Source: an uncultured Pseudomonadota bacterium | GTDB taxonomy: Bacteria > Myxococcota_A > UBA796 > SXON01 | Length of the DNA: 32,438 bases | Direction of reading: 5' to 3' | Assembly (NCBI GenBank): GCA_903844155.1 | Contig: CAIMSU010000109.1 | Coordinates: forward strand, 1 to 32,438 | Shown: positions 2,667 through 32,312 of the stretch, piece by piece | Layout: each line of letters begins with the position of its first letter | Position numbering within the stretch: position 1 is the stretch's first letter | The notes under the pieces: model-generated | Seen by the model: only the letters and a program-made list of their open reading frames with translations | Told to the model about the DNA's origin: nothing | The model's database searches: none | Program-made: the position numbers and the translations under genes

Positions 2667-3119
2667 ATGCGCGTTCTGGTCGTCGAAGACGGCGAAGAGT
2701 ACACCCGCACGCTCACGCGCTTCTGCACGGACGTCTTCGCGTTCACCCGCGCCGGCGACGGCCCGGAGGCGCTCGCCATCCTCGCAGACGAGCCCACGCA
2801 CGGCATCTTCGACCGTATCTTCCTCGATATGCGCTTTGACCGCGTCTCACCCGCCGTCCTGCTCGGCGACCTCGGCCCGACCGCCGAGCGCTTCAACGGC
2901 GACCCGAACCGCGCCCGCCAGTTCCTCGAAGACAACCAGGGCGCCTACATCCTCGCGGCCATGCGCGCGGCAGGCCACGACCTTCCTGTGGTCTTCTCGC
3001 ACGACTTCGACGCCGAACCCCGCCGCTGGGCCAGCATCGAGCGCATGTACGCGCCGGTCCGCTACCTGCCGGACAACGCGTCGGCGGACGCGATCCGGGC
3101 GGCGCTGTTGGGGCTGTGA
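2667..3119 (+). CDS. Stand-alone response-regulator receiver-like protein
   Basis: 150 residues. The N terminus (MRVLVVEDGEEYTRTL) supplies the acidic pair Glu7/Asp8, FLDMRF supplies a candidate phospho-acceptor Asp54, and VVFSHD supplies the conserved Ser/Thr position (Ser111). Between strands 3 and 4 there is an extra segment (about 58-93), and the usual Lys near residue 130 is not evident (YAPVRYLPDN). There is no output domain. It is therefore a divergent single-domain receiver; whether it is phosphorylated is unknown and no histidine kinase is in the window. It ends shortly before the lipoprotein gene at 3138. Confidence 0.6.
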   Translation: MRVLVVEDGEEYTRTLTRFCTDVFAFTRAGDGPEALAILADEPTHGIFDRIFLDMRFDRVSPAVLLGDLGPTAERFNGDPNRARQFLEDNQGAYILAAMRAAGHDLPVVFSHDFDAEPRRWASIERMYAPVRYLPDNASADAIRAALLGL

Positions 3120-3125
3120 AGCGGC

Positions 3126-3131
3126 TATCTT
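3126..3131 (+). promoter_or_regulatory. Putative leaderless -10 hexamer TATCTT
   Basis: TATCTT occupies -12 to -7 relative to the GTG at 3138, exact leaderless spacing. It lies just after the stop of the preceding gene (3119). The hexamer TATCTT also occurs at 14741-14736 upstream of the subtilase gene. Confidence 0.45.
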
Positions 3132-3137
3132 CCCGCC

Positions 3138-3743
3138 GTGCTCCTCCTGCTCACCGCGATCGTCCTCACTGCCTGCTCGCCACCGAGCACGCCGCCAACT
3201 GCGCACGGGCCGAGCGCGCCGATGGACCGGGCACCCGGTGGCACCACATCCTCGGCCGCCTACGCCGCGATCGTCAAGGAGGGCGGCGATCTCTACCTCC
3301 AGACCCCGACGACCACCCGTCTCATCGACACCGGCGTAGACCCGCGCGTGGCCATTTCCCCCGATGAACGCCAGCTCGTCTACGCGAAGCAGGGTTTTGT
3401 GCAGGAGACCGATCTCTGGACCGTTGCGCTGCCGGATGGGATCCCCACCCAACTCACGGACTGGCGCGGGTCCGAGGATCGCCCCACCTTCTCGCCCGAC
3501 GGCGCCCGCCTCGTCTTCGTCTCCGGGTTCACCGGCGTTGCATCGGTCTATGTCGTCGACCACCCGGGCACCGGCATCGTCGCCCGCGAGCACGCGCGCC
3601 AGGTGACCAACGCGAACCTTGGACCCAAGCGACCGGGCTTCGCGCCGAAGAACTTCGTCCCTCCCCCGACCGGCACCGACTACGCCTGGACCGGCGACAA
3701 CCTGACCTGGAACGCCGATGGTCTGCGGACGGTGACACCGTGA
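3138..3743 (+). CDS. PD40/TolB-like beta-propeller lipoprotein
   Basis: 201 residues starting at GTG. The signal peptide MLLLLTAIVLTAC has lipobox LTAC, so Cys13 would be lipidated. After a Pro-rich linker come propeller-type repeats with the PD40 signature: DPRVAISPDERQLVYAKQG and RPTFSPDGARLVFVSGF, then YAWTGDNLTWNADG. Only about three blades are present, fewer than a closed propeller, so it is either a truncated member or oligomerises. Its stop overlaps the GTG of the M23/MopE gene by 4 nt (GTGA, 3740-3743), indicating translational coupling with that protein. The specific ligand is unknown. Confidence 0.72.
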   Translation: MLLLLTAIVLTACSPPSTPPTAHGPSAPMDRAPGGTTSSAAYAAIVKEGGDLYLQTPTTTRLIDTGVDPRVAISPDERQLVYAKQGFVQETDLWTVALPDGIPTQLTDWRGSEDRPTFSPDGARLVFVSGFTGVASVYVVDHPGTGIVAREHARQVTNANLGPKRPGFAPKNFVPPPTGTDYAWTGDNLTWNADGLRTVTP

Positions 3744-5896
3744 TCGCGCTGCTCCTCGCGGTGATGCTCGGGTCGGACCATGCGCGCGCAACAACTTTCT
3801 CCATGCCCACCACGGCCGACTGGTACAGCACCTTCGTGGTTTCGGCCTATTATGACCATGGTGGGGTCACTGACTGGGACTGCGGATCCAACAGTTATTC
3901 CGGTCACCAAGGCACCGATTTTGCCATCTATGGCACGTGGACGACGATGGCGGAGGGCGTGGACATCGTTGCGGCGGCAGATGGCGTGGTCTATTCGACC
4001 AATGACGGTGAGCCGGACACCTGCACCAGCGGCGCCTGCGGGACAGCCAACTACGTGATCCTGCTACACGACGACGGCCACTACACGATCTACTGGCACA
4101 TGAAGACCTGGAGCGTTGCCGTCTCGCCCGGGCAGACCGTGAGCTGCGGCGAAAAGCTCGGCGAGGTCGGGTCGTCCGGCGATTCCACCGGACCGCACCT
4201 GCACTTTGAGCCGTTGCTCGGTGGCTCGACGGGCTTCGATCCGTTCGACGGACCGTGCAACAGCATCACGTCCTATTGGAATGAGCAGGGCAGCTACGAT
4301 GGGCTCCCCGGCATCACCTGCGCGGCTGCGGACACCGACGGCGACGGCTACACCGTCTCCGCGGGCGATTGCGACGACCACAACGCAGGCGTCCACCCCG
4401 GCGCCACCGAGTACTGCGACGGAATCGACAACAACTGCGACGGATCCATCGACGGTCCGGACTCCGTCGACGCAACCCAGTATTACGTGGATGCGGACGG
4501 CGACGGCTATGGGGACCCAAGCCAGCCCGTCAAGCTCTGCTACCCCACTGTCGGATATTCTCTGGACAACACCGACTGTAACGACAGCTACAACCTTGCC
4601 TATCCGGGTGCTTTCGAGCTGTGCGACGGCATCGACGACAACTGCGACGGCGTCATCGACGAGGGCTACGATCAGGACGCCGACGGGTATTCCACCTGTC
4701 AGGGCGACTGCGACGACACGGACCCTGCCGTGAACCCTGGTGCGCCCGAGATCGCCGACGGTGTCGACAACAACTGCAACTACAAGGTGGATGAGGGCAC
4801 GAGCGGCTACGACGACGACCGCGACGGCTGGACTGAGGACGCCGGTGACTGCGACGACGCCGACGCGTTCACCTACCCGGATGCCCCGGAGCTCCCAAAC
4901 TTCAAGGATGACGACTGCGACGGCGTCGTCGACGAGGGCACGACGCTCTACGACGATGACGGCGACGGTTTTTCTGAGGCCCAGGGCGACTGCGACGACG
5001 CCGACCCCGGCATTTACCCGGGCGCCACAGAGATCGCCGACAACCTTGATGGTAACTGCAACGGCGTGGTGGACGAGGGCACGCCAAACGCCGACGCGGA
5101 CGGCGACGGTTGGACCGGCGCCATGGGTGACTGCGACGACGCAAACATGTACGCCTTCCCCGGCGCGATCGAGGTCGTTGACGGCGCGGACAACGACTGT
5201 GACGGCATCGTCGACGACCACACGGAGGTCTACGACGACGACGGAGACGGGTTCTCTGAGGCTCAAGGCGACTGTGACGACGCGGTTGCGACCACGTACC
5301 CGCGCGCCACCGAACTCCCAAATGGCGTAGACGACGACTGCGATCACCTCGTGGACGAGGACACCGTGCTCTCGGACGACGATCATGACGGTTGGACCGA
5401 GCAAGCCGGCGATTGCAACGACGCCGACCCCCTCGCCTTCCCGGGCGCGGATGAGCGTGTGAACGGCCTCGACGATGACTGCGACGGCCGCATCGACAAC
5501 GGCACAACCGCCTTCGATGACGACGGGGACGGCTTTTCAGAGGAGCAAGGCGACTGCAACGACGCCGTCGCCACGATCTACCCGGACGCGCCCGAGGTGG
5601 TCGACGACATCGACCAGAACTGCAACGGCCTCATCGACGACCAGACGGACGTCTTTGACGACGACGGCGACGGCTGGACCGAGCAGCAGGGCGACTGCGA
5701 CGACATGAACGCCCAGATCCACCCCGGGGCGCTCGAGCAGACCAACGGCCGCGACGACAATTGCGACGGGGTCAGCGAGGCGCCCGAGGGGTGGTCGTGC
5801 GGGGCGATCCACGGAGGCGGCGACGGGCTCCTTCCCACCTTCGCGGGCCTGGGCTTGCTTGGGATCGGGTTGCGGCGGCGCAAACGTTCCCGCTGA
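3740..5896 (+). CDS. Secreted M23 metallopeptidase with ten MopE-type repeats and MYXO-CTERM-like tail
   Basis: 718 residues. An N-terminal signal peptide is followed by an M23 (LytM-type) domain, about 35-190, with zinc ligands His56 and Asp60 (GHQGTDF) and His155 (GPHLHFE); His120 fits the second catalytic His. From about residue 198 to 680 there are ten repeats of the pattern D-x-D-G-D-G, G-D-C-D-D, P-G-A-x-E, D-G-x-D-N-x-C-D-G-x-x-D-E, matching the Cu-binding MopE / putative metal-binding motif family; calcium or copper binding is plausible. The end WSCG, then a hydrophobic segment, then RRRKRSR resembles the MYXO-CTERM surface-sorting signal. The likely role is a surface-attached cell-wall endopeptidase stabilised by metal. 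It is coupled by overlap to the upstream lipoprotein. Repeats are diverged at DNA level, so recent duplication is unlikely. Confidence 0.9.
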   Translation: MIALLLAVMLGSDHARATTFSMPTTADWYSTFVVSAYYDHGGVTDWDCGSNSYSGHQGTDFAIYGTWTTMAEGVDIVAAADGVVYSTNDGEPDTCTSGACGTANYVILLHDDGHYTIYWHMKTWSVAVSPGQTVSCGEKLGEVGSSGDSTGPHLHFEPLLGGSTGFDPFDGPCNSITSYWNEQGSYDGLPGITCAAADTDGDGYTVSAGDCDDHNAGVHPGATEYCDGIDNNCDGSIDGPDSVDATQYYVDADGDGYGDPSQPVKLCYPTVGYSLDNTDCNDSYNLAYPGAFELCDGIDDNCDGVIDEGYDQDADGYSTCQGDCDDTDPAVNPGAPEIADGVDNNCNYKVDEGTSGYDDDRDGWTEDAGDCDDADAFTYPDAPELPNFKDDDCDGVVDEGTTLYDDDGDGFSEAQGDCDDADPGIYPGATEIADNLDGNCNGVVDEGTPNADADGDGWTGAMGDCDDANMYAFPGAIEVVDGADNDCDGIVDDHTEVYDDDGDGFSEAQGDCDDAVATTYPRATELPNGVDDDCDHLVDEDTVLSDDDHDGWTEQAGDCNDADPLAFPGADERVNGLDDDCDGRIDNGTTAFDDDGDGFSEEQGDCNDAVATIYPDAPEVVDDIDQNCNGLIDDQTDVFDDDGDGWTEQQGDCDDMNAQIHPGALEQTNGRDDNCDGVSEAPEGWSCGAIHGGGDGLLPTFAGLGLLGIGLRRRKRSR

Positions 5897-10474: not shown

Positions 10475-11260
10475 GTGAAGGTCGCGCTCGTACAACTCGA
10501 TCTCGCGTGGGAGGACCCCGCAGTCAACCGTCAGCGCGCGGAGCGGCGATTGCGCGAAGCGGCGGCGCTTGGAGCGCGGCTCGTGGTGCTGCCGGAGATG
10601 TTCACGTGCGGGTTTTCGATGCGCGCGACGGCCGAGGCGGAGGGTGGCGAGACCGAAGCGTGGATGGCCGAGGCGGCGGCCGGGATGGACCTGTGGATCC
10701 TCGCCGGCGTTCCGCAGCTCTCGGCGGAAGGACGGCAGAATCGGGCGGTGCTGATGTCGCCGACGGGCGCGGTGCAGCGGTATTCCAAGCTCCACCCCTT
10801 CTCGATGGCCGACGAGCACCACCACTACGCGCCGGGCAGCGAGACTGTGACCTGGGACGTGGAGGGGCTGCGCCTCACCCCCTTCATCTGCTACGACCTG
10901 CGTTTTCCCGAGGTGTTCCGGGCCACCGCGGCGCACACGGACCTGTACTGCGTCATCGCCAATTGGCCGGAGCGTCGGCGGGCGCACTGGCAGGCCCTGC
11001 TCCTCGCCCGCGCCATCGAGAACCAGGCGTTTGTCGCCGGGGTAAACCGGGTGGGCGACGGCGACGGGCTGCACTATGCGGGCGACAGCGCGCTGGTCTC
11101 GCCCTGGGGCGAGCGCATCGTGTCCGCCGCGGAGGCCGAAACCGTGGTCGTCGGCGAGGTTTCCAGGGAAGCCGTCGCCAACGCGCGCCTGACCTTCCCG
11201 GTCCTGAACGACCGCCGGCCGCCCGTCCCGCACCGAACCTCGTCAGATAGCCAGGGATGA
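10475..11260 (+). CDS. Carbon-nitrogen hydrolase, YafV-like omega-amidase
   Basis: 261 residues of the nitrilase superfamily. The catalytic triad is visible as Glu41 (VVLPEMFTCGF), Lys105 (YSKLHPF) and Cys139 (PFICYDLRFPE). The LPEMFTxGFSM and DEHHHYAPG segments and the length fit the YafV/Nit2-like omega-amidases, which hydrolyse 2-oxoglutaramate and 2-oxosuccinamate to free the methionine-salvage transaminase pathway of its by-product. Substrate is inferred from family resemblance. It starts at GTG, apparently leaderless, and its last 4 nt overlap the start of the RNA methyltransferase gene (ATGA), so the pair is co-translated. Confidence 0.87.
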   Translation: MKVALVQLDLAWEDPAVNRQRAERRLREAAALGARLVVLPEMFTCGFSMRATAEAEGGETEAWMAEAAAGMDLWILAGVPQLSAEGRQNRAVLMSPTGAVQRYSKLHPFSMADEHHHYAPGSETVTWDVEGLRLTPFICYDLRFPEVFRATAAHTDLYCVIANWPERRRAHWQALLLARAIENQAFVAGVNRVGDGDGLHYAGDSALVSPWGERIVSAAEAETVVVGEVSREAVANARLTFPVLNDRRPPVPHRTSSDSQG

Positions 11261-12738
11261 AGCACCACAAGCATCGCACGCCGCGCGAGGTGGTCATCGA
11301 CCGGATCGACGCGAAAGGGCGGGGTGAGGGTAAGGATGAGGGCGGGCGAAGCTGGGCTATCCGCGGTGCGCCGGTGGGAGCGACGGTCCTGGCAGCAGGC
11401 CGCAATTTTGACGGCGTGCGGCTGGCGACGGTGCGGCCGGCCGACGACGCCGTCAGCCCGCCGTGCCCGGTTTTCGGTGTTTGCGGCGGGTGCCAGTGGC
11501 AGGAGATGCCGGTCGGGCGGCAGCGCGAGGAGAAGGCGCGGATGCTGGGACGGATGCTCGGCGAGCTAGCCGGGACGGACCACGGCATGCTTCACGCCGG
11601 GCCCGAGTACGGCTACCGCAACAAGATCGAGTTGACGTTCGGCACGGCCCGGTACCTGCTCGCGGACGAATTGAACACGGAGATCGGCCGGATTGGCCGC
11701 TGGCTCGGCTTTCACGCCCCCGGACGGTACGACCGGATCGTCGACGCGCCCGCGTGCGCCCTCGCCTCGCCCGCGATCAACGCCGTGTACCAGCGCATTC
11801 GCGCCGACATCATGGCTTCTGACCTGCCCTTCTGGGACGCCGACGCCCACATCGGCTTCTTCCGCAACCTCGTCCTCCGCTCCGGCGACCTATCAAAAGC
11901 GACGACGTCGCTTTTGATACATCCCCAGGGGCAGGTCCTCGTTGCGGTCTACACGGCACCGGGCGACGACGCGCAGGCGGCGTGGCTGCGGGAAAAGGCG
12001 CCGCGCTGGGGCGCGACATGCGTTGGCTGGTTCGAGAACGCCGGGCCAGCCGACGCCGTCGGCGGGGAGCTGCGTGAGGTGCTCGTCGGCGGAGAGCTGG
12101 CGATCACCGACGGTATCTCGGGGCTGGTGTTCCGACTGTCGCCGACCGCGTTCTTCCAGGCCAACGCCATCGCCGCGGAGGAGATGGTGCGGGTTGTCCG
12201 GGAGTACCTGGCCCTGGACCGACCGAGCTCGTCGGATTCGCGCCCAACCGTGCTCTGGGATCTGTACTGCGGCGCGGGCCTGCTCGGCCTGGCCTGCGCC
12301 GCGTCGTTCGACGAGGTCGTCGGCATCGAGACCGTCGCAGCCGCCGTCGCGGACGCTGAAGCCAACGCCGTTGCCAACGCCGTCCACAACGCCAGGTTCG
12401 TCGCCGGCAACGTCGAACACCTGGTCGCCGATCTCCTCGCCACCACCCCGCCGGACGCCGTCATCGTCGACCCGCCGCGCAACGGCCTGCACCCCGACGC
12501 CCTCGCCGTCCTCACCCGCCTCGCCCGCCCCTCGACGGGCCACGCGCCTCCCGTCCTCGTCTACGTGGCGTGCAAGCCCACGTCGCTCCTCCGCGACGGC
12601 CGGGCGCTGATCGCCGCGGGCTGGACGTGCACGGACCGCGTCGCCATCGACCTTTTCCCGCAGACCGCGCACGTGGAGGTCGTGAGCCGCTGGATTGTCA
12701 ATCGCTCAATCACGCCGGTCGGACCGCCGTCACCCTGA
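11257..12738 (+). CDS. 23S rRNA/tRNA m5U methyltransferase (RlmD/TrmA family) with in-frame palindrome insertion
   Basis: 493 residues. An N-terminal OB/TRAM-like region (about 10-65) is followed by a four-cysteine iron-sulfur site (Cys70, Cys76, Cys79, Cys167), a Rossmann methyltransferase core (LWDLYCGAGLLGLA, about 333-347), VDPPRNG (404-410) and nucleophile Cys439 in YVACKP; AFFQAN (about 298-303) is also typical. It would methylate C5 of a uridine in rRNA or tRNA; which site cannot be told. Residues 211-224 (DLSKATTSLLIHPQ) interrupt a region that in the family normally runs straight from the LR-x-G turn into the next strand, and are encoded by a 29-bp palindrome also found in the CoA-transferase gene. 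The 3' end overlaps the convergent 68-aa gene by 29 nt. Confidence 0.9.
   Translation: MKHHKHRTPREVVIDRIDAKGRGEGKDEGGRSWAIRGAPVGATVLAAGRNFDGVRLATVRPADDAVSPPCPVFGVCGGCQWQEMPVGRQREEKARMLGRMLGELAGTDHGMLHAGPEYGYRNKIELTFGTARYLLADELNTEIGRIGRWLGFHAPGRYDRIVDAPACALASPAINAVYQRIRADIMASDLPFWDADAHIGFFRNLVLRSGDLSKATTSLLIHPQGQVLVAVYTAPGDDAQAAWLREKAPRWGATCVGWFENAGPADAVGGELREVLVGGELAITDGISGLVFRLSPTAFFQANAIAAEEMVRVVREYLALDRPSSSDSRPTVLWDLYCGAGLLGLACAASFDEVVGIETVAAAVADAEANAVANAVHNARFVAGNVEHLVADLLATTPPDAVIVDPPRNGLHPDALAVLTRLARPSTGHAPPVLVYVACKPTSLLRDGRALIAAGWTCTDRVAIDLFPQTAHVEVVSRWIVNRSITPVGPPSP
11891..11919 (+). repeat. In-frame palindromic element, copy A
   Basis: A perfect inverted repeat with 14-nt arms (11891-11904 and 11906-11919) around a single A at 11905. 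The left arm is TATCAAAAGCGACG. It lies wholly inside the RNA methyltransferase gene and is translated as part of GDLSKATTSLLIHP. The copy at 15565-15593 has 28 of 29 identical bases and is read in the same phase in another gene. Shared flanks (GGCGAC before, ATCC after) suggest a full unit of about 42 bp, that is 14 codons. Confidence 0.85.
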
Positions 12739-14850: not shown

Positions 14851-15996
14851 TTACGGGGACGCCAGGCCGCCCAGCTCCGCGATCACCTCGGCAGTGTGCT
14901 CACCAAGCGCGGGCGGGGGACGAAACGCGACCATCGGGAGCGGCGGGGCGGGAAATGTCCATGGACCAAGCTGCGTCGTCCGCGCGAGGGGGTGCGCGAG
15001 CGACTGCTCCACCGACAACGCCGCGCCGCACGGCACGCCTGCTGCGGCAAGGCGCGCGTCCCAGACGGCCACGGCATCGCTGGCGAGGACGGTTTCAATC
15101 GCGGCGTCCAGCCGGGAGCGGTCGGCGACACGCTGGGGGAGCGACGCCCACGCGGGATCGCGCGGAAGGTCGAGGGACGAACGCAGCTTTTCCCATAAGC
15201 CGTCGTTCGCACAGCAGATCGCGAGCCAGCCGTCGCGGCAACGATAGAGGTTGTAGGGGGCGATGGACGGGTGCGCGTTGGAGGGCAGCGGCGGCGAGAC
15301 ACCCGCGTTCAACCAGGCAGATGCGTAGTAGGCAAGGAGGTGGTGCTGGACATCCAGCATCGAGATCACGCGCCGACAGCCCAGACCCGTGCGCGCCCGG
15401 TCCAGAAGCCCGAAGAGCACCGCCTGCACGGCCACCTGCGCGCTCGCCAGGTCGGCGATGCTCGGCCCGGCCTTCCGCGGCGGATCCCCGGTCAACGCCG
15501 CGATCCCGCCCACGCTCTGGAGCACGAGGTCGTACCCCGCCCGCCCTGCCCACCCGTCCGGATCTATCAAAAGTGACGACGTCGCTTTTGATACGTCGCC
15601 GAATGCATGGATCGCCACCGAGACCAGCCCCGGGTTTTCCCGGCGAAGCTCCTCGTCTCCGAGCCCGAGGCGCTCCATCACCCCCGCGCGGAAGTTCTCG
15701 ACGACGACGTCGGCGGTCCGCACCAGCCGGCGCGCGAGGTCGAGCCCCTCGGCGGTCTTCAGATCGAGGACGATCGACCGCTTGTTTCGGTTGGTACAGG
15801 CGAAGTAGACGCTCATCCGCTCACCCGGTTCGCCGCCCGGCCCCGTCGCCATGATCGGCAGGAACCGCCGCGTCTCGTCGCCCTCCGGCGCCTCCACCTT
15901 GATCACGTCAAAGCCCTGATCCCCGAGGATCTGCGTCGCCCAGGGCCCGGCCAGCACGCGCGTGAAGTCAATGACGCGGAAAGGCCGACTGGTCAT
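14851..15996 (-). CDS. CaiB/BaiF family (type III) CoA-transferase with in-frame palindrome insertion
   Basis: 381 residues. Family features are RVIDFTRVLAGPWATQILGDQGFDVIKVE at the N terminus, TNRNKRSIVLDLK, ADVVVENFRAGVMERLG, and GPSIADLASAQ, whose Asp182 is the expected catalytic Asp that forms the acyl intermediate. It transfers CoA between carboxylic acids; the substrate pair is not predictable. Residues 134-147 (DVSKATSSLLIDPD) split the usually continuous FG to GRAGYD segment and are encoded by the palindrome at 15565-15593. Its start overlaps the ABC ATPase stop by 4 nt, making it the last gene of a four-gene unit; why an acyl-CoA enzyme travels with this exporter is unclear. Confidence 0.88.
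   Translation of the reverse strand: MTSRPFRVIDFTRVLAGPWATQILGDQGFDVIKVEAPEGDETRRFLPIMATGPGGEPGERMSVYFACTNRNKRSIVLDLKTAEGLDLARRLVRTADVVVENFRAGVMERLGLGDEELRRENPGLVSVAIHAFGDVSKATSSLLIDPDGWAGRAGYDLVLQSVGGIAALTGDPPRKAGPSIADLASAQVAVQAVLFGLLDRARTGLGCRRVISMLDVQHHLLAYYASAWLNAGVSPPLPSNAHPSIAPYNLYRCRDGWLAICCANDGLWEKLRSSLDLPRDPAWASLPQRVADRSRLDAAIETVLASDAVAVWDARLAAAGVPCGAALSVEQSLAHPLARTTQLGPWTFPAPPLPMVAFRPPPALGEHTAEVIAELGGLASP
15565..15593 (-). repeat. In-frame palindromic element, copy B
   Basis: A 29-nt inverted repeat with 14-nt arms, one mismatched pair and one central base, 28/29 identical to the copy at 11891-11919. On the coding (minus) strand it is read as part of GDVSKATSSLLIDP. Of its frames, one contains a stop (TGA), and both copies use the same stop-free frame. 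Confidence 0.85.
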
Positions 15997-16910: not shown

Positions 16911-17824
16911 AGGTCACGCCGCTGAAAACGGGCGAAGCCGGCTGCGAAAAACACGGTCGCCAACAGCGCGCTGCGCCCGAGCGCCGCCGCCAGGACACCC
17001 GGGTCCGTCGACCAGAAGTCGGCCCAGTACTCGGTCGGGATCGCCAGGGCGACGAAATCGCAGAGCCGGCCGACGCCGTCCGCGCCATGCCGACGCACCA
17101 ACTCATGAAGGATCGCCGCCGCCATCGGCATGAAGAAGAAGGTCAGCGCCGAGAGTACGCGAGCGCCGTTCGGGTTCCCGATCAGGAGGCTCGCCCCCAC
17201 CGCCATCCCCAAAAAGGGCAGGGAGAACGCGACCGACCACGCCGTCCGAACGCAGAGCGTCAGGAACAGGGCCAACGGCGGGTTCCCGCTCACCATGAAC
17301 AGCCCCATCCCCCACGCCAGCACGATCCCGAGCGCCGCGGCCGTAACGCCAAGCGCAAGCTGCCCAAAGAGCTTGCCGAACGCGATCTCCAACCTCCCCG
17401 TCCGCACCAGCAGGAACCGGATCGACCGCGAGCGAACCTCCGCGCTCACGGTGCCCGACGCCGTAAAAACCAGCACCATCGGCAACAATCCCATGCTGAA
17501 GATGCCCACCCAGAGCCCCAGCACCGGCTGGCTCAACAGCGCGTGCGCCGCATCGTCGCCGCCAACGAAGGGCGACAGCCACTGCTGGATGTCGCCGTTC
17601 TGGAGCAATTGCGGCAACATGGCGCCCGGTTTCGTGGTGGCCGGCACCCCTAGCGTCTCCGCGAGCTGCGCCTCGGCCGATGCCAGGATCTTGGCGTACA
17701 ACCATACGGAGAAGCCGATGCCGCCAAGGTAGGCGAGGATCACGAGCTGAAAGAGGCGCGTCCGCACCGCCTCGCCAAGCTCGTAGACCGCCACCCACAT
17801 CGTGTCCAGCAGCGATCGGATCAC
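16907..17824 (-). CDS. ABC-2 type transporter permease
   Basis: 305 residues with about six membrane segments: LFQLVILAYLGGIGFSVWLY near the N terminus, a soluble loop (about 47-100), then LGLWVGIFSMGLLPMVLVFTA, LALGVTAAALGIVLAWGMGLFMV, LALFLTLCVRTAWSVAFSLPFLGMAVGASLL, VLSALTFFFMPMAAAIL and a last one near LLATVFFAAGFA. The segment SAEVRSRSIRFLLVRTGRLEIAFGKL between helices is typical of ABC-2 permeases. It overlaps the upstream anchored protein gene by 4 nt. It probably forms the exporter with the following ATPase. Confidence 0.85.
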   Translation of the reverse strand: MIRSLLDTMWVAVYELGEAVRTRLFQLVILAYLGGIGFSVWLYAKILASAEAQLAETLGVPATTKPGAMLPQLLQNGDIQQWLSPFVGGDDAAHALLSQPVLGLWVGIFSMGLLPMVLVFTASGTVSAEVRSRSIRFLLVRTGRLEIAFGKLFGQLALGVTAAALGIVLAWGMGLFMVSGNPPLALFLTLCVRTAWSVAFSLPFLGMAVGASLLIGNPNGARVLSALTFFFMPMAAAILHELVRRHGADGVGRLCDFVALAIPTEYWADFWSTDPGVLAAALGRSALLATVFFAAGFARFQRRDL

Positions 17825-18543
17825 TGAAAGTCCGGGATTTCCTTCAGGTTCGCGAGGCCGGGAACGGCGTCGCCCGAGATGTACGAGAAGGGGTCGACCG
17901 CCTCGGGGTCCACGGTGTCGTAGACGTCCGCCGGGATGATGTCCCGCATCTTGTCGTCCGCTGCGATCACGGCGTCCAGCGTGTTTGCGGCGAATTCCAT
18001 GGCGTCGCGCCGGTCCGGGTCCTGCCCGCCGTTGGACGCGGTGACAAAGTCGTCCACCTCGGTCTTGAGCTTGCCGTTCATCTCGCTCATCGCGGCGTCC
18101 ACGGCCGCTACCTGGTCGTCATTCAGGTTCGCCTGCTCGGTCAACGCAGCGAGCGCTTGCGAGCGGCGGGCGTCGAGGGCCGCCTGCATTTCGGAGACGC
18201 TCTTCTTGATCTCCTCGGGGGTGAGCGGCGGGGCCGGCGGGGCGTCTCCGTCTTTCGTCGGCGGATCGACCGGTTTTGCTTCGCCAACCTGCATTTTAAG
18301 GTGCGCGCGCTTCTTCGGCTCTGCGTCATCCGCGGCGGCGTCTTGAAGCTCCTCCGGCGCCTTCGCGTGCAGCAGGTCCCGGATCCCATCCAGCGCCTTT
18401 CCCCCTCGACAATCGCTGTTGTGTGCCTTCGCCCGCAGCTCATCCATCTGCTTGCGCGCATCGAGCAGCTCCCCCCGCGGCTCCCACGCGCCAAGCACGA
18501 TCCCCACAACGAGCGCGATCACGGCGGGCACGAAGGACTTCAC
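17821..18543 (-). CDS. Membrane-anchored helical protein of unknown function
   Basis: 240 residues from GTG 18543. A single N-terminal membrane anchor (VPAVIALVVGIVLGAWEP) is followed by a helical, charged region (about 25-60), a Pro-rich linker (about 85-110), a long helix (about 110-175, EEIKKSVSEMQAALDARRSQALAALTEQ), and a C-terminal acidic region ending in DPFSYISGDAVPGLANLKEIPDF. I do not recognise the family. It is the first gene of the unit with permease, ATPase and CoA-transferase (4-nt overlaps throughout), so it may be a periplasmic adaptor of the exporter. No Shine-Dalgarno sequence; a GATA box has exact leaderless spacing. Confidence 0.72.
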   Translation of the reverse strand: MKSFVPAVIALVVGIVLGAWEPRGELLDARKQMDELRAKAHNSDCRGGKALDGIRDLLHAKAPEELQDAAADDAEPKKRAHLKMQVGEAKPVDPPTKDGDAPPAPPLTPEEIKKSVSEMQAALDARRSQALAALTEQANLNDDQVAAVDAAMSEMNGKLKTEVDDFVTASNGGQDPDRRDAMEFAANTLDAVIAADDKMRDIIPADVYDTVDPEAVDPFSYISGDAVPGLANLKEIPDFQ

Positions 18544-18549
18544 CGATTC

Positions 18550-18557
18550 GGCCTATC
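18550..18557 (-). promoter_or_regulatory. Putative leaderless -10 box of the ABC unit
   Basis: Minus-strand GATAGG from 18557 to 18552; T18555 is exactly 12 nt before GTG 18543. No -35 hexamer is recognisable. Confidence 0.5.
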
Positions 18558-18612
18558 CCGCGCAGGGGGACGCGCGCGTGCAGGCTCGGTGCACGGGGTC
18601 TTCCGGATCCCT

Positions 18613-18755
18613 TGGGCGGCTCGCTCCGAGGGGGCCGCATACGAAAACGGACGACGTCACTTTTGGCACATCGGAATGTGCCAAAAGCTGACATCGTCCG
18701 TTTGCGTACGCGGCCCACGCCGATCCAGAATCCATATGGAACGCCGCGTTGCCCC
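18613..18755. repeat. Dispersed repeat, copy 1, interrupted by a large hairpin
   Basis: The left end TGGGCGGCTCGCTCC (18613-18627) is identical to 32106-32120, and the right end (18733-18755, containing GGAACGCCGCG) matches 32143-32165 at 19 of 23 positions. In copy 2 the two ends are 22 nt apart; here they are 105 nt apart, with the 85-nt hairpin 18632-18716 in between. The two ends are roughly inverted with respect to each other (GGGCGGC versus GCCGCCC in copy 2), as in small non-autonomous elements. Confidence 0.6.
18632..18716. repeat. 85-nt near-perfect hairpin related to the in-frame palindromes
   Basis: Arms 18632-18671 and 18676-18716 are complementary except for three mismatches and one bulged base, around a 4-nt loop CGGA. 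It contains the 16-nt core CAAAAGTGACGTCGTC on the minus strand, differing from the core of the in-frame palindromes by one base. Read on the minus strand in the same phase it would give DVPKVTSSVFV, comparable with DVSKATSSLLI in the CoA-transferase. Here it is intergenic. There is no T-run, so it is not a typical terminator. Confidence 0.8.
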
Positions 18756-18804
18756 AGCGCCGTCAACGGAGCGGAGACTGCTCGGGGTTCGCTGCCGAAC
18801 AACT

Positions 18805-18891
18805 CTTGACACGTCAAGGTCACCTTCCGTGTCAACCCTAAAACAAAATTCGCGTCCTACTCTTGACGTGTCACCCCCAACGTGGTTCATT
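18805..18891 (+). promoter_or_regulatory. Candidate promoter with paired TTGAC-n-GTCA operator-like sites
   Basis: Site 1 CTTGACACGTCAAG (18805-18818) and site 2 TTGACGTGTCA (18863-18873) are near-palindromic variants of each other, with a half-site GTGTCAA at 18829-18835 between them. The TTGACG of site 2 (18863-18868) is followed after 17 nt by TTCATT (18886-18891), a plausible -35/-10 pair. This stretch is markedly AT-richer than its surroundings. A 58-nt site-to-site distance suggests cooperative binding of a dimeric regulator. The regulator is not identifiable. From 18892 to 19069 the DNA is a C-rich, A-poor leader without any gene I can support. Confidence 0.45.
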
Positions 18892-19069
18892 GTCCGGACC
18901 GCCGCGTGATCCGCGACGGTCCGGTCTCCGGTCGCTCCCCGCCCCCTGCTCCCCGTCGACGGTCTCCCCCATCGTCGCCTGCTCCCCGCTCCCCGCCCGA
19001 CCTCCCCGGTCGACCCCGCGCCGACCCGCTCGCCGCCCGCTTCCCTCCCCGCCGCTCCCCGAGGCCCCG

Positions 19070-20164
19070 ATGCTGCCCGACCTTTTCTCCGAAAACGCCC
19101 CCTCCCCCGCGCCGATGAACCTCAAGCCCTGGCTCATCATGGGCGCCATCGGCGTTTCCCTGGCGTTGAACCTTGCTCTCGCCGTGCGACTCTCCATGCC
19201 CGGCGCCTCCGCGACGCCCGCCCCCGCCGCCGGCTCCGTCGTGCAGGCCGTCGCTCCCCCGGCGACCCCCGACGCCGCCGTGATCGGCGACGACACGACC
19301 GTCACGAACGCGCCCATCCCGCCCGCCCAGGTCGCGCCGCTCCCGCCACCGCTCGGCGCCGCCACGGAGGCCGGCTCGCACGTCTACTCAGGCGTCGTCA
19401 CCTCCTCGATCTCGGCCACGTTCACAGGTGTGACGGAGACGTCCCCCACCGCGCTCTCGGCCGTCTACACGCGCTTGTTCGCGTGGGACCTCGACATGCG
19501 CAAGGACCTGCACAAGGGCGATCTCGTGAAGGTGCTCTATGAACAGCCGCAGGGCGAGGAGCCGCTCGTGCTCGCCGCGACGTTCACCAGCCAGACCGGC
19601 ACGCCCCAGGAGCACGTCTACACCGCGTACCGCTGGCAGGCGCCCGGCGACCGGTTCCCCTCGTACTGGTCGCCCGATGGCACCGAGGTGCCCAAGCGCC
19701 TCGTCGCCGGCCCCCTCGAGGACTACGAGCAGGTCACCAGCCTGCTCAAGGACCGGCCGACGCACGAAGGAATGGACTTCAAGACGCCGATCGGCACGCC
19801 GGTCGAGGCCCCGCGCGCTGCCGTCGTCACGCGGATCAACTGGAACGAGCCGGCGAACGGCAACTGCGTGGAGCTTCGGTACACCGCAGACGGCATCATC
19901 GCCAAGTTCCTGCACCTGAACGAGATGCTCGTGAAGGAAGGGCAGACGCTCGCGGCCGGCACCGTGTTCGCCAAGACCGGGAATACCGGGCATTCAACCG
20001 GCGGACATCTGCACTACCAGCTTGAGCGCAACGGCAACGTGATCGACCCCGTCGACTACCACGGCACCCTGCGTCGCCAGCTCCAGCCCGACGCGATGGA
20101 CCGCTTCCACACCGAGACTGCAACCCTCCAGCAGCAGCTCAACGGGCAGGTCGCGGAGCGCTGA
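19070..20164 (+). CDS. Membrane-anchored M23 family metallopeptidase
   Basis: 364 residues. A cytoplasmic N terminus (about 1-18) is followed by a transmembrane anchor (PWLIMGAIGVSLALNLALAV, about 20-39), a Pro/Ala-rich periplasmic linker to about 100, an intermediate domain (about 103-225) resembling the OapA/Csd3-type region (VTSSISATFTGVTETSPTALSAVYTRLFAWDLD), and the M23 domain (about 228-330) with His232, Asp236 (HEGMDF) and His315 (GGHLHYQL). It probably cleaves peptidoglycan cross-links or, like several anchored homologues, shapes the wall. ATG 19070 has GAGG 5 nt upstream and matches the domain start; ATG 19115 is an alternative. The in-frame sequence upstream to 18863 is Pro/Arg-rich and looks non-coding. 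Convergent with arsC. Confidence 0.87.
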   Translation: MLPDLFSENAPSPAPMNLKPWLIMGAIGVSLALNLALAVRLSMPGASATPAPAAGSVVQAVAPPATPDAAVIGDDTTVTNAPIPPAQVAPLPPPLGAATEAGSHVYSGVVTSSISATFTGVTETSPTALSAVYTRLFAWDLDMRKDLHKGDLVKVLYEQPQGEEPLVLAATFTSQTGTPQEHVYTAYRWQAPGDRFPSYWSPDGTEVPKRLVAGPLEDYEQVTSLLKDRPTHEGMDFKTPIGTPVEAPRAAVVTRINWNEPANGNCVELRYTADGIIAKFLHLNEMLVKEGQTLAAGTVFAKTGNTGHSTGGHLHYQLERNGNVIDPVDYHGTLRRQLQPDAMDRFHTETATLQQQLNGQVAER

Positions 20165-30980: not shown

Positions 30981-32075
30981 ATGGCCCGCAGACCCCTGAT
31001 CGCCGCCACGGCGCTGCTCGCCTTTCTGGCAGCCGGTCATGCCCAGGCCGCCGACGGTCGCCGCATCGCGCTCGTCATCGGCATCTCCGACTACGAGCAC
31101 CTCCCCCCGACGGCGAGGGTCGACAATGCCAGGTCCGAAGCCGCGGATCTGCAACGCGTGTTGGAGCAGAGCGGCGGCTACTCGGAGGTGCGCCTCCTGA
31201 CCGACGCATCCGCCACCCTCGCGAACCTGCAGACCGCGCTCAAGGACCAGGCCGCGGCCGAGGCCGGCGTGAACGACACGTTCCTCCTGTATTTTGTCGG
31301 TGAGGGGGTTGGCGCGGACTACGGTGATCCGCGCATCCTCCTCTACGACAGCGACCCGGACGCCCTCGAGGCCACCTCGATGTCCATCGCCGATCTCGAT
31401 GGCTACATCGAGAAGTACGTGCATTGCAAGGGCTACAGCGTCGTCCTCGACGCCGCGCACGAGGGCTCCCTCAACAAGCTCGCGCTCCTTGGCCCGACCG
31501 GCGACCAGTGGCCCGGAAAAGGTCGGTCCGACTTCGTTGTTTCGGCTGCAGGCCCGCACCAGGCCGGGAAGCCCGGCGTGTTCGCCGGCGCCTTCCTCGA
31601 CGGCATCGCCGGACGTGCCGACTCCAACAGCGATGGGACAGTCACGGCGTCCGAGCTCAACAACTACCTGGTCAAGATGGTGCCCGCAGCCAGCGGCGGC
31701 GCGCAGACGCCCACCGTCGTCGCCAGCTATGACCCCACCCTCGTCCTCGCGGTGGCCCCACCGAAGGTCGCGGTCGTGGAACCGACCAGCCCGACCGCGC
31801 CGACGCCGACCCCCACAGTCGCCCACGGCCGCGTCGACAAGGCAAAGTTCGTGTTTCAAGGCGGCACACACCAGACCGTGTCCTGTGCTGGGGCCGCACC
31901 CGTGGCCTGCGATCCCGCCTGCTACGTCTGGGACGTCCCGGCTGGCGACTGCACCGTGAACATGACGGTTGGCGGCCAGGATCTCACCGGCACCATCGCC
32001 GTGCTCTACCGCGGGGCGTACGCCTGCGGGGGCTTCGAAGGTGGCCTGCGCTGCTCCAGCCCCCCGCCGCCATAG
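30981..32075 (+). CDS. Secreted caspase-fold (peptidase C14-like) protein without catalytic residues
   Basis: 364 residues. The signal peptide MARRPLIAATALLAFLAAGHAQAA precedes a caspase-like domain (about 26-240): RRIALVIGISDYEHLPPTARVDNARSEAADLQRVL is the classic start, LLYFVGEG replaces the usual YFSGHG so the catalytic His is Glu108, and VLDAAHEG replaces DACHSG so the nucleophile Cys is Ala159. The C-terminal 110 residues follow a Pro/Thr linker and contain six Cys, possibly three disulfides, in a beta-rich domain. It cannot be an active cysteine peptidase and may be a decoy, inhibitor or binding protein. Divergent from the FG-GAP surface protein gene. Confidence 0.85.
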   Translation: MARRPLIAATALLAFLAAGHAQAADGRRIALVIGISDYEHLPPTARVDNARSEAADLQRVLEQSGGYSEVRLLTDASATLANLQTALKDQAAAEAGVNDTFLLYFVGEGVGADYGDPRILLYDSDPDALEATSMSIADLDGYIEKYVHCKGYSVVLDAAHEGSLNKLALLGPTGDQWPGKGRSDFVVSAAGPHQAGKPGVFAGAFLDGIAGRADSNSDGTVTASELNNYLVKMVPAASGGAQTPTVVASYDPTLVLAVAPPKVAVVEPTSPTAPTPTPTVAHGRVDKAKFVFQGGTHQTVSCAGAAPVACDPACYVWDVPAGDCTVNMTVGGQDLTGTIAVLYRGAYACGGFEGGLRCSSPPPP

Positions 32076-32105
32076 TCCGCATCAGCGCGGGGTTTTGAGG
32101 TCCTC

Positions 32106-32165
32106 TGGGCGGCTCGCTCCCGTCCTCACGGGTTCAAGGTCGCATGCGGAACGCCGCGCCGCCCC
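32106..32165. repeat. Dispersed repeat, copy 2
   Basis: A 60-nt unit: the left end TGGGCGGCTCGCTCC (32106-32120) is identical to 18613-18627, and the right end 32143-32165 matches 18733-18755 at 19 of 23 bases. The ends are imperfect inverted repeats, with a small inner stem CCGT/ACGG. It lies between the caspase-like gene and tRNA-Sec. Confidence 0.6.
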
Positions 32166-32200
32166 CAAGCGGGAAGCGCTCGCACCCCGGAACGGACCCG

Positions 32201-32214: not shown

Positions 32215-32312
32215 GGCAGGCCGTGCCGCGCTGGTGCAGGCCCCGGTCTTCAAAACCGGTCGGGGCGTCCCGGAAGGAGGCGCCCGGTGAGTTCGATTCT
32301 CATGGCCTGCCG
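32215..32312 (+). tRNA. selC: Selenocysteine tRNA, anticodon TCA
   Basis: A 98-nt tRNA with all marks of bacterial tRNA-Sec. The 8-bp acceptor stem pairs GGCAGGCC (32215-32222) with GGCCTGCC (32304-32311), with discriminator G32312. The anticodon arm is CCGGT-CTTCAAA-ACCGG with TCA at 32250-32252. The extra arm (about 32263-32287) is long, with a stem of about 7 bp. The T arm is GTGAG-TTCGATT-CTCAT. The D stem can be drawn as five pairs with one bulged A. The 3' CCA is not encoded (CCCA follows), so it must be added. It reads UGA as Sec together with SelB and a SECIS element; selA, selB, selD and any obvious selenoprotein lie outside the window. Confidence 0.95.

Follow-up and report, generated by a model that had tools for sequence, protein, structure and literature searches.

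A long intergenic hairpin that is probably a REPIN-type element, and its palindrome on both sides of a RAYT-like transposase gene

Between two divergently transcribed genes of the 32,438-nt stretch of DNA analysed here (the window) lies an 85-nt sequence, at 18632-18716, that can fold on itself almost from end to end, and this raises the question of whether it serves the adjacent genes or is a copy of a mobile element. The first-pass annotation had placed a hairpin at exactly these positions, had grouped it with two shorter palindromes inside genes, and had suggested that it represents a composite or full-length form of that family. The hairpin proved real, with 37 pairs. Folded as RNA, it reaches -65.5 kcal/mol (z -9.5, with none of 200 shuffles equally good), and folded as DNA it gives -42.7 kcal/mol for one strand and -44.9 kcal/mol for the other (z -12 on either). 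Its 16-nt core, CAAAAGTGACGTCGTC, occupies minus-strand positions 18650-18665, and both in-gene copies differ from it by one base in minus orientation, at 11901-11916 and 15575-15590; the window holds 5 matches to this core against 0.33 expected. The outer stem and the CACAT-CGGA-ATGTG segment that had been described are likewise present.

Examination of the fold, together with the alignment and covariation of long copies from the same genome, reveals that the whole of 18632-18716 is made up of two inverted copies of the short palindrome, a doublet comparable to a REPIN, plus an added outer stem. The first unit, ATACGAAAACGGACGACGTCACTTTTGGCACAT, occupies 18639-18671 on the plus strand and contains the conserved core AAAACGGACGACGTCACTTTT at 18644-18664. 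The second, GACATCGTC, at 18676-18709 on the minus strand, is inverted, diverged and carries an extra C. These two units of ~33 nt stand head-to-head round a CGGA loop (18672-18675) that is identical in 10 aligned long copies, and they are enclosed by a 7-bp stem with the arms GGGCCGC (18632-18638, +) and GCGGCCC (18710-18716, +), which differ in sequence from copy to copy with their pairing preserved. The hairpin is thus composite, as had been suggested, but it is not a separate full-length element; the short unit is either its building block or a collapsed derivative. In the phase that had been pointed out, translation of its minus strand indeed gives DVPKVTSSVFV, but the site is intergenic (18544-19069); the peptide is therefore not expected to be made, and the comparison with an encoded peptide is irrelevant to this copy.

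The consensus of the short unit is AYNTATSAAAACCGACGACGTCACTTTTSATACNTC (N, S and Y as in the IUPAC code), with an invariant palindromic core, GACGACGTC. A search with the pattern AAAANNGACGWCGTCNNTTTT, allowing up to 2 mismatches, returned 148 matches in the 8.1-Mb draft and none for a reversed-pattern control, which bears out the kinship of the hairpin with the in-gene elements. These counts refer to one draft genome of the species, and 148 is probably an undercount, because several contigs (for example C201, C213, C82 and C298) end inside the palindrome. The same pattern gave one spurious 2-mismatch match in seven relatives, and the exact core gave no copy apart from two chance matches in 57 relatives, four of them of the same genus. 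These two, loci L113 and L114 in genomes of the same order, were rejected because the palindrome is absent from them. Across 84,980 species genomes and IMG/VR the core had no exact match outside the records of its own genome. The family is thus confined to one species and spread over many of its loci, which disposes of the concern that conservation might be limited to this site. We conclude that it is a new, species-private family of REP/REPIN elements, a type of miniature mobile DNA that is already known.

In a sample of 79 clusters, taken for the most part from the first 100 places listed and hence biased towards exact cores, 40 were singles and 39 doublets, 27 of the latter being inverted and 12 direct. 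Cores are spaced by 31, 39-40 or 46-47 in the inverted doublets and mostly by 31 in the direct ones. Copies bridging the short and long forms, on which the proposed kinship had been made to depend, are plentiful: they include inverted doublets of several spacings, direct doublets and the locus L098, a single, centrally collapsed palindrome. The latter sits at the same site of the host repeat R2 (see below) and retains an outer stem of the same kind (GGACGGC/GCCGTCC), suggesting that the long form can probably shrink to the short one. Palindromes occur in all gene orientations and are mostly extragenic, with 7 of the 62 sampled sites of resolved context (11%) inside called genes. Monomers and direct doublets have no excess flank pairing, and stem extension by flanking palindromes was accordingly rejected as a family-wide property.

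Given the suggestion that a RAYT might accompany the family, the genome was searched with Pfam Y1_Tnp, and this uncovered a RAYT-like gene (G000:C268:23789-24592) with palindromes of this very family on both sides, a direct doublet upstream and a direct doublet of opposite orientation downstream. Its product matches Y1_Tnp (PF01797) at 2.5e-6, above the cutoff, and its sole NCBIfam family match is REP_Tyr_transpos (3e-10; 40 bits, under the 80-bit cutoff), which 6 of 8 RAYT homologues match at E up to 0.001. The HUH histidines and the YI tyrosine, the latter the predicted catalytic residue, are invariant in all 8 homologues, and the C-terminal part has weak HTH-like similarity. A PDB search with the single sequence gave no match, and one with a profile gave weak matches to solved IS200-type transposases (E about 0.01). 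Comparison of the protein with 84,980 genomes yielded no passing relative.

The genome has four paralogues of the gene, and two sister species contribute three close homologues. The sister RAYT genes G001:C152 and G004:C19 have other palindromes on both sides, with 38 matches in G001 and 18 in G004 respectively, which are absent from the other four genus genomes searched; neither sister palindrome forms a repeat outside the genome with its RAYT. Palindromes adjoining two further paralogues in our genome also recur elsewhere in it. The paralogue C113:28362 has its own palindrome, GTCAAGAGCCGGATCTGAGCAGCTCAGATC (L178 1416-1456), with a small array at C308 (L153 63-160), and the paralogue C113:46393 is followed by CTACCACAAGTGCTCTCCGCAGTTGTGGTAG (L045 1984-2014), which recurs at another locus (L202 488); both palindromes are predicted to represent REP families of their own. 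This private palindrome per RAYT is the strongest evidence for the mechanism proposed below, and the pairs in the sister species offer a clean comparative test of the open question of whether RAYTs drive the spread of REPs.

In light of these observations, we propose, with a probability of about 0.88, that the hairpin is a REPIN-type element, that is, two inverted RAYT-associated REP palindromes that could fold into one single-stranded DNA hairpin. It would belong to the non-autonomous miniature mobile elements and would rely on the divergent RAYT of contig C268 to copy or move it in trans. This enzyme would bind the folded single-stranded palindrome and recognise it by its conserved imperfect core; doublets would then be copied or moved to intergenic sites, singles being remnants or building blocks. 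The palindrome has very probably spread through the genome by means of the transposase gene that it flanks, and binding, cleavage and transposition of the element by this RAYT are the steps that we infer. Within the stem, a C-A mispair (18655/18693) is invariant and an unpaired base (18688) holds a fixed position in 10 of 10 aligned long copies, the behaviour that a feature recognised by a transposase would be expected to show. For the REPs of E. coli a mispaired bulge is required (PMC8266576). Counting against the explanation, the consensus starts with NTATS and has no GTAG tag of classical REPs, the C268 RAYT is flanked by direct doublets and not by the long inverted form, and its product falls under the NCBIfam cutoff and reaches solved IS200-type transposases only at the E-value given above.

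The hairpin interrupts a second, unrelated intergenic repeat, R2, which is marked by two nearly invariant blocks, GGGCGGCTCG and GGAACGCCGC. Repeat alignment places its left half, containing TTGGGCGGCTCGCTC, at 18593-18631 (+) and its right half, containing CGCCGATCC...GGAACGCCGC, at 18717-18760 (+), with GGAACGCCGC itself at 18738-18747. This genome has at least 107 copies of R2, nearly all uninterrupted, and one sister species has 7 weaker copies. They are intergenic, often 4-22 nt past a stop codon on the same strand. The long hairpin is borne by about eight R2 copies and the collapsed form by one, always at one and the same position within the repeat; as R2 makes up ~0.1% of the genome by a rough estimate, this association is far from random. 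Outer-stem pairing in the R2-borne group (n=10, of which L052 has a doubtful R2) is 6.4/8 compared with 4.9 after shuffling (0/2000). None of seven R2 loci matches an Rfam model at E up to 1, and RNAalifold recovers only an invariant GCGGC/GCCGC stem with no compensatory change; we therefore do not claim R2 as an RNA. The analysis has thus brought to light a second abundant intergenic repeat that has no Rfam description. An identification of R2 as an attC site was dropped, since no GTTRRRY/RYYYAAC ends were seen and the copies are dispersed rather than arrayed.

R2 varies in presence and absence between species. One copy is kept at the orthologous place in our species and the sister G003 (L185 and L150; 89% over 471 nt), and another G003 copy lies after the orthologue of window gene 2667-3119, a place at which the window has none (L193 against window 2667-3126). 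The window itself contains a second, empty R2 copy at 32087-32170, about 11 nt past the stop codon of gene 30981-32075, with a tRNA-Sec gene (32215-32311) following shortly downstream.

The spacer that holds R2 and the hairpin separates a gene without a Pfam match (17821-18543, -) from one for an M23 peptidase (19070-20164, +). Both have orthologues in G001, G002 and G005, with identities of 67, 60 and 49% for the left gene and 77, 76 and 62% for the right. The orthologous spacers there are 187, 113 and 103 nt long and lack both R2 and the hairpin, as against 527 nt in our species. We therefore propose that R2 and the hairpin reached this divergent promoter spacer after the species had split from its sisters. 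G001 and G003, and in part G002, conserve a promoter-like region of the M23 gene, near 18842-18905 round CTCTTGACGYGTCACCCCC, which lies ~140 nt downstream of the hairpin. Two partly palindromic TTGACACGTCAAG / TTGACGTGTCAC motifs occur upstream of the same gene at 18805-18870; the second of them, which sister species conserve, may be a promoter with an operator.

Given the regular nesting in R2, it is possible, at somewhat less than even odds in our estimate, that R2 and the hairpin spread as one mobile unit rather than by repeated insertion of the hairpin into R2. Such composite amplification would refine the REPIN explanation, and both can coexist. It would account for the single internal site and the same kind of outer stem in every R2-borne hairpin, and is in keeping with the presence and absence of R2 between species. 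The R2 flanks of the bearing copies are also somewhat more alike than random (5/2000 permutations on the right, 45/2000 on the left). However, some bearing copies are as near to an empty R2 as to another bearing copy (L064: 0.90 vs 0.86), and long hairpins of the same subfamily occur outside R2 (L014, L015, L043 and L071). More speculative still, and on balance doubtful, is a broader picture in which R2 and the inverted doublet form a composite mobile element, or the RAYT targets R2 via a folded loop, making the palindrome family specifically parasitic on R2, with RAYT/palindrome pairs of this genus turning over so fast that sister species share no family.

We consider it improbable that the hairpin is instead a functional RNA, transcribed and serving one of the neighbouring genes as terminator, attenuator or mRNA stabiliser. 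The very stable fold would suit such a role, which has been proposed for REPs in other bacteria (PMC3733652), as would strong pair covariation. In the ten aligned long copies 95% of the cells pair, and 9 pairs have changes in both partners, amounting to 16 cells (4.1 on average after shuffling; 0/500). Selection on RNA is expected to leave G-U intermediates; however, none were seen among the covarying pairs of these ten copies, nor was one-sided variation. The full Watson-Crick swaps favour a DNA-level mechanism over an RNA role, and in these ten related sequences their symmetry would fit template-switch correction of palindromes or the processing of single-stranded hairpins. Furthermore, no intrinsic terminator (GC-rich stem with a T run) is present in 18400-19150, Rfam recognises only the tRNA-Sec in the whole window, and the hairpin lies between divergent genes, with the conserved M23 promoter-like region downstream of it and empty orthologous sites in relatives. 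The RNA-stability role raised by the first-pass annotation is hence not supported. On the REPIN reading, the paired stem would be kept by DNA-level processes, and the copy at 18632-18716 would have no selected function at its locus; the likeliest reading is that of selfish DNA lying in a promoter spacer, rather than a regulatory RNA.

The palindromic, invariant core GACGACGTC could also point to a symmetric protein-binding site, such as an operator or nucleoid-protein site, multiplied by selection for binding. We regard this as very unlikely: such a site should be common to sister species with the same promoter, whereas the palindrome is species-private, lies in all gene orientations and in genes at 11% of sampled sites, and flanks a RAYT on both sides.

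The two in-gene copies of the window, both single REP palindromes recognised by sequence match, lie at 11887-11926 (+) in a methyltransferase-like gene (11257-12738) and at 15561-15600 (-) in a CoA-transferase III gene (14851-15996), and are explained as members of the same mobile family. The second corresponds to about 9-10 extra residues relative to the proteins of the nearest genus relatives, G001, G002 and G003, which are 81-83% identical overall (the L218 and L219 rows were mis-framed and left out of this comparison). A palindromic element of the Rickettsia type (RPE), which adds peptides to proteins and leaves decayed intergenic remnants, would fit these two in-frame copies and the residues added to the CoA-transferase, but is the least likely reading of all, since only 7/62 sampled sites are genic, even though the same gene caller marks nearly all of the window as coding, and since the family has an associated RAYT, while CGTC/RPE repeats are reported without one (PMC3733652).

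Among known systems, the closest resemblance is to the REPINs and RAYTs of Pseudomonas fluorescens SBW25 (PMC3116915), which likewise comprise lineage-private extragenic palindromes, singlets as well as inverted doublets that form hairpins, and a RAYT flanked by the same palindrome. Unlike those, the present family lacks the GTAG tag, has frequent direct doublets (12/39), and has loops so short that a doublet forms one long near-perfect hairpin; its RAYT is divergent, with only the weak C-terminal HTH-like similarity. The GTAG- and CGTC-tagged REPs (PMC3733652) are of the same size class and also include some copies in genes, and dimers nested in other palindromes are known among them (A. variabilis GTAG-15, T. 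roseum GTAG-23 and H. neapolitanus CGTC-1). Here neither tag is terminal. The GTAG sub-class was rejected on account of the NTATS 5' edge, and a CGTC-tagged REP or RPE because CGTC sits mid-unit and a RAYT is associated, in contrast to the CGTC families, which are reported without a transposase (PMC3733652). E. coli TnpAREP and its BIMEs (PMC8266576) share with our system a Y1/HUH single-strand transposase relative, pairs of REP and inverted REP, and conserved stem imperfections; the E. coli REPs differ in carrying GTAG and an AA/GC bulge and are unrelated in sequence, and the RAYT here is a predicted one. With RPEs the family shares in-frame insertion into genes, here minor in frequency, and differs in being mostly extragenic and accompanied by a RAYT. 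High copy number in one genome, mostly extragenic position, mainly inverted doublets, and a RAYT with Y1_Tnp domain, HUH motif and tyrosine flanked by the same palindrome make up the testable REP/REPIN features apart from the GTAG tag, which places the family among the REPs/REPINs (PMC3116915, PMC3733652) in an unusual nested setting.

Elsewhere in the window, the gene at 3740-5896 contains a seven-copy, 141-nt tandem coding repeat (4700-5827) that specifies Asp/Cys-rich protein repeats of the GDCDD type.
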